Of a DNA stretch of 64,000 nucleotides, positions 9,202 to 44,500 are shown piece by piece. The notes under the pieces were generated by a model. It was given only the letters and a program-made list of their open reading frames with translations. It made no database searches and was not told where the DNA came from. Position 1 is the stretch's first letter; every line of letters begins with the position of its first letter. Position numbers and translations under genes: made by a program. Source of the stretch: Metallumcola ferriviriculae (GTDB taxonomy: Bacteria > Bacillota > JADQBR01); NCBI RefSeq assembly GCF_035573695.1, contig NZ_CP121694.1, forward strand, positions 2,208,501 through 2,272,500. Direction: 5' to 3'.

Positions 9202-9217
9202 AACCCTAATAAAAGGT

Positions 9218-9244
9218 AAACCCTGTAGCATAACTACAGGGTTT
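9218..9244. terminator. Bidirectional hairpin between convergent genes
   Basis: Eleven-base perfect stem AAACCCTGTAG / CTACAGGGTTT (9218-9228 and 9234-9244). T-rich DNA lies on both sides, so it can end both the DUF362 gene and the - strand DUF1858 gene. Confidence 0.75.
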
Positions 9245-9248
9245 AGCA

Positions 9249-9446
9249 TTATTTTGCTTTTGATAAATTGTTCAAGTCTTCCATTAGTTTGTCCAAGTCA
9301 ACACCATGCATTCGAGCACCCTGCTCGATAGATTCAAATAATGCGCCGCCTCAACCAAGGCAATGTAAGCCATGCTTGTCGAAAATGGTTATGGCTTCAG
9401 GGTACTTCTGAACCACCTGTTGAATGACAGTTTGTGGAGTTATCAA
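9249..9446 (-). CDS. DUF1858 redox-disulfide protein, probable selenoprotein (UGA = Sec32)
   Basis: A 65-residue frame from TTG at 9446, five bases behind GAGGTGA, to TAA at 9249, broken only by a TGA at 9353-9351 (codon 32). Read through, it gives a complete DUF1858/hybrid-cluster-associated disulfide domain: start MITPQTVIQQVV, core KYPEAITIFDKHGLHCLG, then U, GGALFESIEQGARMHGVD and LDKLMEDLN. The family motif is HCLGC, so the TGA replaces its second redox Cys (CxxC to CxxU). A hairpin with stem TCGAGC/GCTCGA and loop AGGGT begins 22 bases after the TGA, as in bacterial SECIS elements. Partner and reaction are unknown. If TGA is not recoded, this is a pseudogene. It is invisible to standard gene finders. 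Confidence 0.8.
9312..9328 (-). promoter_or_regulatory. SECIS-like hairpin for Sec insertion
   Basis: On the - strand, stem TCGAGC / GCTCGA with five-base loop AGGGT. The first loop G lies about 29 bases after the TGA, within the roughly 16-37 base range used for bacterial SECIS searches. GG in a small apical loop is the hallmark recognised by SelB. Confidence 0.7.
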
Positions 9447-9561
9447 TAGTATCACCTCGTTGTTAAATATTTTTTGTTAAGAGAACTAAACTTATGCATC
9501 CTTATTATGGGCAAAGTTTAATATATCATATCAGAAAATGCCGACGATAATCAAGTGAATT

Positions 9562-44285: not shown

Positions 44286-44370
44286 TGCCTTGGCAACCCG
44301 GCGATCGTAGCCTGATTCGGCCTTAGACCCGTAGTTTTGCGTCCCCCGCTTTCACGGGGTTTGCCTTTTT
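44286..44370 (-). promoter_or_regulatory. Cyclic-di-GMP-I (GEMM) riboswitch upstream of rhs
   Basis: Aptamer on the - strand from GGCAAACC (44365) to GGGTTGCC (44292). It shows the class-I hallmarks in order: GGCAAACC, a first hairpin capped by GAAA, GGGACGCAAA, CTACGGGTCTAA, a second hairpin, and the CCGGGTTGCC closing strand pairing with the GGCAA start (P1). The terminator that follows lies just before the rhs start. If P1 is stabilised by ligand, the terminator is free to form, so c-di-GMP would switch rhs off; this direction is inferred. Confidence 0.93.
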
Positions 44371-44500
44371 CTGGTATTTTATTCGATTGTTCTACTACGC
44401 TTCGATATATTTCCTTTTTTTTCCTGCTTTTTACAAATATTTTTTTGAATATTTTAGTAATTTAGTCTCCGTCCCAGCATATACCTCCTCCTAATGGCAT

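Follow-up and report, generated by a model that had tools for sequence, protein, structure and literature searches.

Reading frame and domain

A small reading frame on the minus strand of the 64,000-nucleotide stretch of Metallumcola ferriviriculae DNA analysed here (the window) encodes a DUF1858 domain and is interrupted by one TGA. The question is whether this codon marks a dead gene or a site where selenocysteine (Sec) is inserted. The features of the locus are the following.

9249..9446, minus strand: DUF1858/TIGR03980 selenoprotein gene (predicted), 65 codons, TTG start, TAA stop, from the read-through translation and family matches
9351..9353, minus strand: predicted selenocysteine, in-frame TGA codon 32, in place of the second Cys of CLGC; 22 sequences have TGA there, others Cys codons
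9312..9328, minus strand: putative SECIS hairpin TCGAGCA-GGG-TGCTCGA, 22 nt 3' of the TGA
9452..9458 (approximate), minus strand: ribosome-binding site GAGGTGA, 5' of the TTG start, recognised from the sequence
9217..9245, both strands: predicted two-way intrinsic terminator between the DUF1858 gene and the convergent DUF362 gene, with a 13-pair stem on the minus strand, a 12-pair stem on the plus strand and T-rich tails
9525..9554, minus strand: promoter-like site TTGATT-18-TATGAT with extended TG, a weak candidate recognised by its match to the consensus

With TGA read as U, positions 9252-9446 translate into the 65-residue protein MITPQTVIQQVVQKYPEAITIFDKHGLHCLGUGGALFESIEQGARMHGVDLDKLMEDLNNLSKAK. 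The TGA (codon 32, window positions 9353-9351) is the sole stop ahead of the terminal TAA. TIGR03980 covers the read-through protein end to end with 82.3 bits (cut-off 44.95), and PF08984 (DUF1858) matches it with 71.9 bits (cut-off 32.2). The original prediction of a full DUF1858 domain broken by TGA alone, with its own start and ribosome site and with the frame intact on both sides of the TGA, was thus borne out. When the CxGC columns are aligned, the redox pair of the product is CLGU, in which Cys29 is retained and the second Cys is replaced by the predicted Sec. As is expected of a bacterial selenoprotein gene, the UGA is in frame, is aligned with the Cys of the homologues and has intact flanks on both sides. 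The host genome has a second DUF1858 copy (L002/L029, G000:C1:2035393-2035566), which is a Cys form with the motif CSDC.

Recurrence of the TGA

The matches listed from 398 genomes of the phylum included at least 23 TGA-interrupted homologues, this gene among them. In all 23 the interruption was a single TGA, never TAA or TAG, and it stood at the second Cys in 22 and at the first Cys in one. The Cys forms have TGT or TGC as the second-Cys codon, and the TGA form was kept in all three sampled genomes of the host's own family. SelB was encoded by each of the 23 TGA-bearing genomes listed, as against 263 of the 398 overall (hypergeometric p = 5e-5); it must be noted that shared ancestry of the Sec forms and of related genomes inflates comparative statistics, so that this p value and the one given below are indicative. 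It had been proposed that UGA replaces the second Cys, and that Cys homologues and further U forms aligned at residue 32 would support this; both kinds of homologue were found, and the additional stops in relatives that would have spoken against it did not appear, each listed interrupted homologue having only the one TGA.

These observations bear on two simpler explanations of the codon. In favour of a nonsense mutation in a decaying gene are the end of the frame at codon 32 under the standard code and the existence of the Cys-form paralogue elsewhere in the genome (G000:C1:2035393); but 22 sequences from several families have TGA at this codon and none has TAA or TAG, the flanks are intact, and the hairpin described below is conserved with compensation. 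We therefore consider a pseudogene very improbable, in agreement with the earlier judgement that chance decay was unlikely. A sequencing error is more improbable still: although a single base separates TGA from TGT or TGC, the same TGA is found in independent assemblies, L019 and L020 among them.

A search of plasmid, viral and phage collections found no relative. When the window was scanned for more TGA-interrupted genes, a second convincing candidate, as judged by eye, was not found. Two further DUF1858 forms, L130 and L133 (in G401 and G262), have the motifs CMGU and CFGU, and the GAGCAGGGTGCTC hairpin core likewise follows their TGA.

The hairpin downstream of the TGA

In bacteria the SECIS hairpin lies about 16-37 nt 3' of the UGA and has a G in its loop. 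The hairpin at 9328-9312 begins 22 nt from the TGA and folds as seven pairs with a GGG loop or, alternatively, as six pairs with an AGGGT loop. The distance was exactly as first described, and the six pairs and AGGGT loop given at that time extend to seven and GGG. The folding energy of the hairpin did not differ significantly from that of shuffled sequences (z = -0.25), and because it is unremarkable, the case for the hairpin rests on comparison across relatives.

A five-pair hairpin core was present in 21 of the 22 Sec forms, but all 42 Cys forms lacked it (Fisher p = 5e-16); randomisation of synonymous codons would be expected to produce it in approximately 4%. At least one Sec sequence without the core pattern (L118) can fold its own longer stem at the same place. 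Pairing held in 95.2% of the stem cells when 21 distinct Sec sequences were compared, with compensatory changes at two stem pairs (C-G/U-A/A-U and A-U/G-C). Cells in which both sides had changed numbered 15, compared to 5.3 in shuffles, and none of 500 shuffles reached as high a value; when, as a control, the partner was slid by 1 to 3 columns, pairing fell to 22-45%. Two Cys homologues that are close in protein sequence (L021 and L022) have GAGCAGGGTGCTAAA in place of GAGCAGGGTGCTCGA, so the outer pairs of the hairpin disappear together with the TGA. This comparison of sequences indicates that the RNA hairpin would have been selected together with the TGA. The description of the hairpin as SECIS-like is in this way supported by covariation that is confined to the Sec forms, although its energy alone is not significant.

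Selenocysteine machinery of the host

The genome (3.72 Mb, a single contig) encodes SelA (615.8 bits), SelB (388.7 bits), SelD and tRNA-Sec, the set that a selenoprotein gene needs in its host. The selB gene lies directly 3' of selA, and the tRNA-Sec, with anticodon TCA, approximately 5 kb beyond selA-selB. The host SelD (L030, G000:C1:414315-415238) is itself broken by one in-frame TGA; selenocysteine-containing SelD proteins likewise have a single in-frame TGA. All four genes, selA, selB, selC and selD, whose presence had been named as a check, were thus found, including selB and selC, without which the prediction would have fallen.

The presence of the full Sec machinery also bears on whether TGA could have been reassigned throughout the genome, or be read here as another residue such as Trp. 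In favour of this, three of the 37 frames of at least 200 codons in the window end in TGA, which is the least used stop there; against such a reading stand, besides the machinery, the homologues, which have Cys and not Trp at the TGA codon, and the hairpin core, which accompanies the TGA and is missing from the Cys forms. Reassignment appears to us hardly more credible than a reading error in the assembly.

On the evidence of the sequences, it is highly probable that this is a stand-alone DUF1858 (TIGR03980) gene with selenocysteine inserted at residue 32. SelB in complex with Sec-tRNA-Sec would bind the hairpin 22 nt past the UGA, and selenocysteine would enter at residue 32 to give the CLGU motif.

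Comparison with known proteins

The original prediction had asked whether Sec forms of this family were already described. They have been predicted before: a DUF1858 domain-containing selenoprotein (PF08984, CxxU, representative WP_012065717.1) is tabulated as a predicted family in two reviews, and the 2026 review counts it among high-confidence computational predictions (PMC9312934; PMC13188914). For this family the 2026 review refers to Peng 2016 and to Zhang 2008, in whose main texts the word DUF1858 was not found. The domain and the Sec position (CxxU) of the reviewed protein are the same as here, and no difference was found when family and motif were compared. Judged by its sequence, the gene is a well-supported new member of the already predicted CxxU DUF1858 selenoprotein family.

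It is interesting to compare the product with its Cys relatives. It shares the full-length domain and the CxGC columns with the Cys forms of TIGR03980 (hybrid cluster protein-associated redox disulfide domain), and differs from them in the predicted Sec at the second Cys and in the mRNA hairpin. To the N-terminal domain of ScdA/YtfE (RIC), PF04405, there is a weak sequence match (25.7 bits, below the cut-off of 32.5). The fold is similar to that of YtfE in 5FNN/5FNY (TM 0.69-0.75 by query length, with E values that are not significant), but unlike ScdA/YtfE the protein is a stand-alone chain of 65 residues without the hemerythrin-like di-iron domain. As a full-length RIC repair protein it did not qualify, scoring 31.3 against 259 bits with NF009777 and 22.4 against 204.7 bits with TIGR03652.

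Structure and predicted function

The AlphaFold2 model, in which Sec was modelled as Cys, is all-helical and confident (pLDDT 91.4). The closest solved folds were 2K5E, 2K53 and 2FI0, and YtfE (5FNN/5FNY, part) was matched more weakly. Three residues separate Cys29 from residue 32, the two lying at and just after a short helix, and we infer from the model that Cys29 and Sec32 would be near enough for a reversible selenenylsulfide. The product is probably a small helical selenol/thiol redox carrier or reductase, the redox role being suggested by the motif. DUF1858 has been met in nitrate respiration and denitrification contexts, which are distant and do not fix its function (PMC6282519; PMC6710368). 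A possible role in nitrosative or Fe-S stress is only hinted at, by the distant connection of DUF1858 with ScdA/YtfE and with denitrification regulons.

Genomic neighbourhood

The neighbours of the gene are guaB and genes for a lysine 2,3-aminomutase-like radical SAM protein, a HEAT protein, DUF362, NUDIX, radical SAM and nucleosidase proteins. Analysis of the neighbourhoods of the Sec loci revealed no functional partner or evident pathway, the neighbours being mostly housekeeping genes. Since guaB and the radical SAM neighbours recur at several Sec loci, distant ones included, the synteny argues for an old, vertically kept DUF1858 Sec locus. Elsewhere in the window, a c-di-GMP-I riboswitch (44289-44375, minus strand, 85.3 bits) was the only Rfam match at gathering level.

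A possible form with selenocysteine at the first Cys

Three DUF1858 sequences from two genera of a different family of the phylum (L119, L122 and L123, in G371, G405 and G409) have TGA at the first Cys (UxGC). Their close relatives have Cys at that first position, and SelB is present in the UxGC genomes. No one conserved hairpin was assignable to the UxGC forms, because the candidate stem is also partly present in a Cys relative. The UxxC arrangement is absent from the tables of the reviews, which give only CxxU (PMC9312934; PMC13188914). On balance, we lean towards a second subfamily of DUF1858 selenoproteins in this other family of the same phylum, one in which Sec takes the place of the first Cys.

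Significance

Selenoprotein genes of this kind tend to be missed by standard gene callers because what these see is a 31-codon frame. Since the hairpin lies within the coding sequence, where Cys homologues whose proteins are similar in sequence offer a comparison, SECIS rules can be tested cleanly on the Sec and Cys forms of DUF1858. If the UxGC subfamily proves true, selenium would have been placed on either side of one redox pair in a tiny domain.
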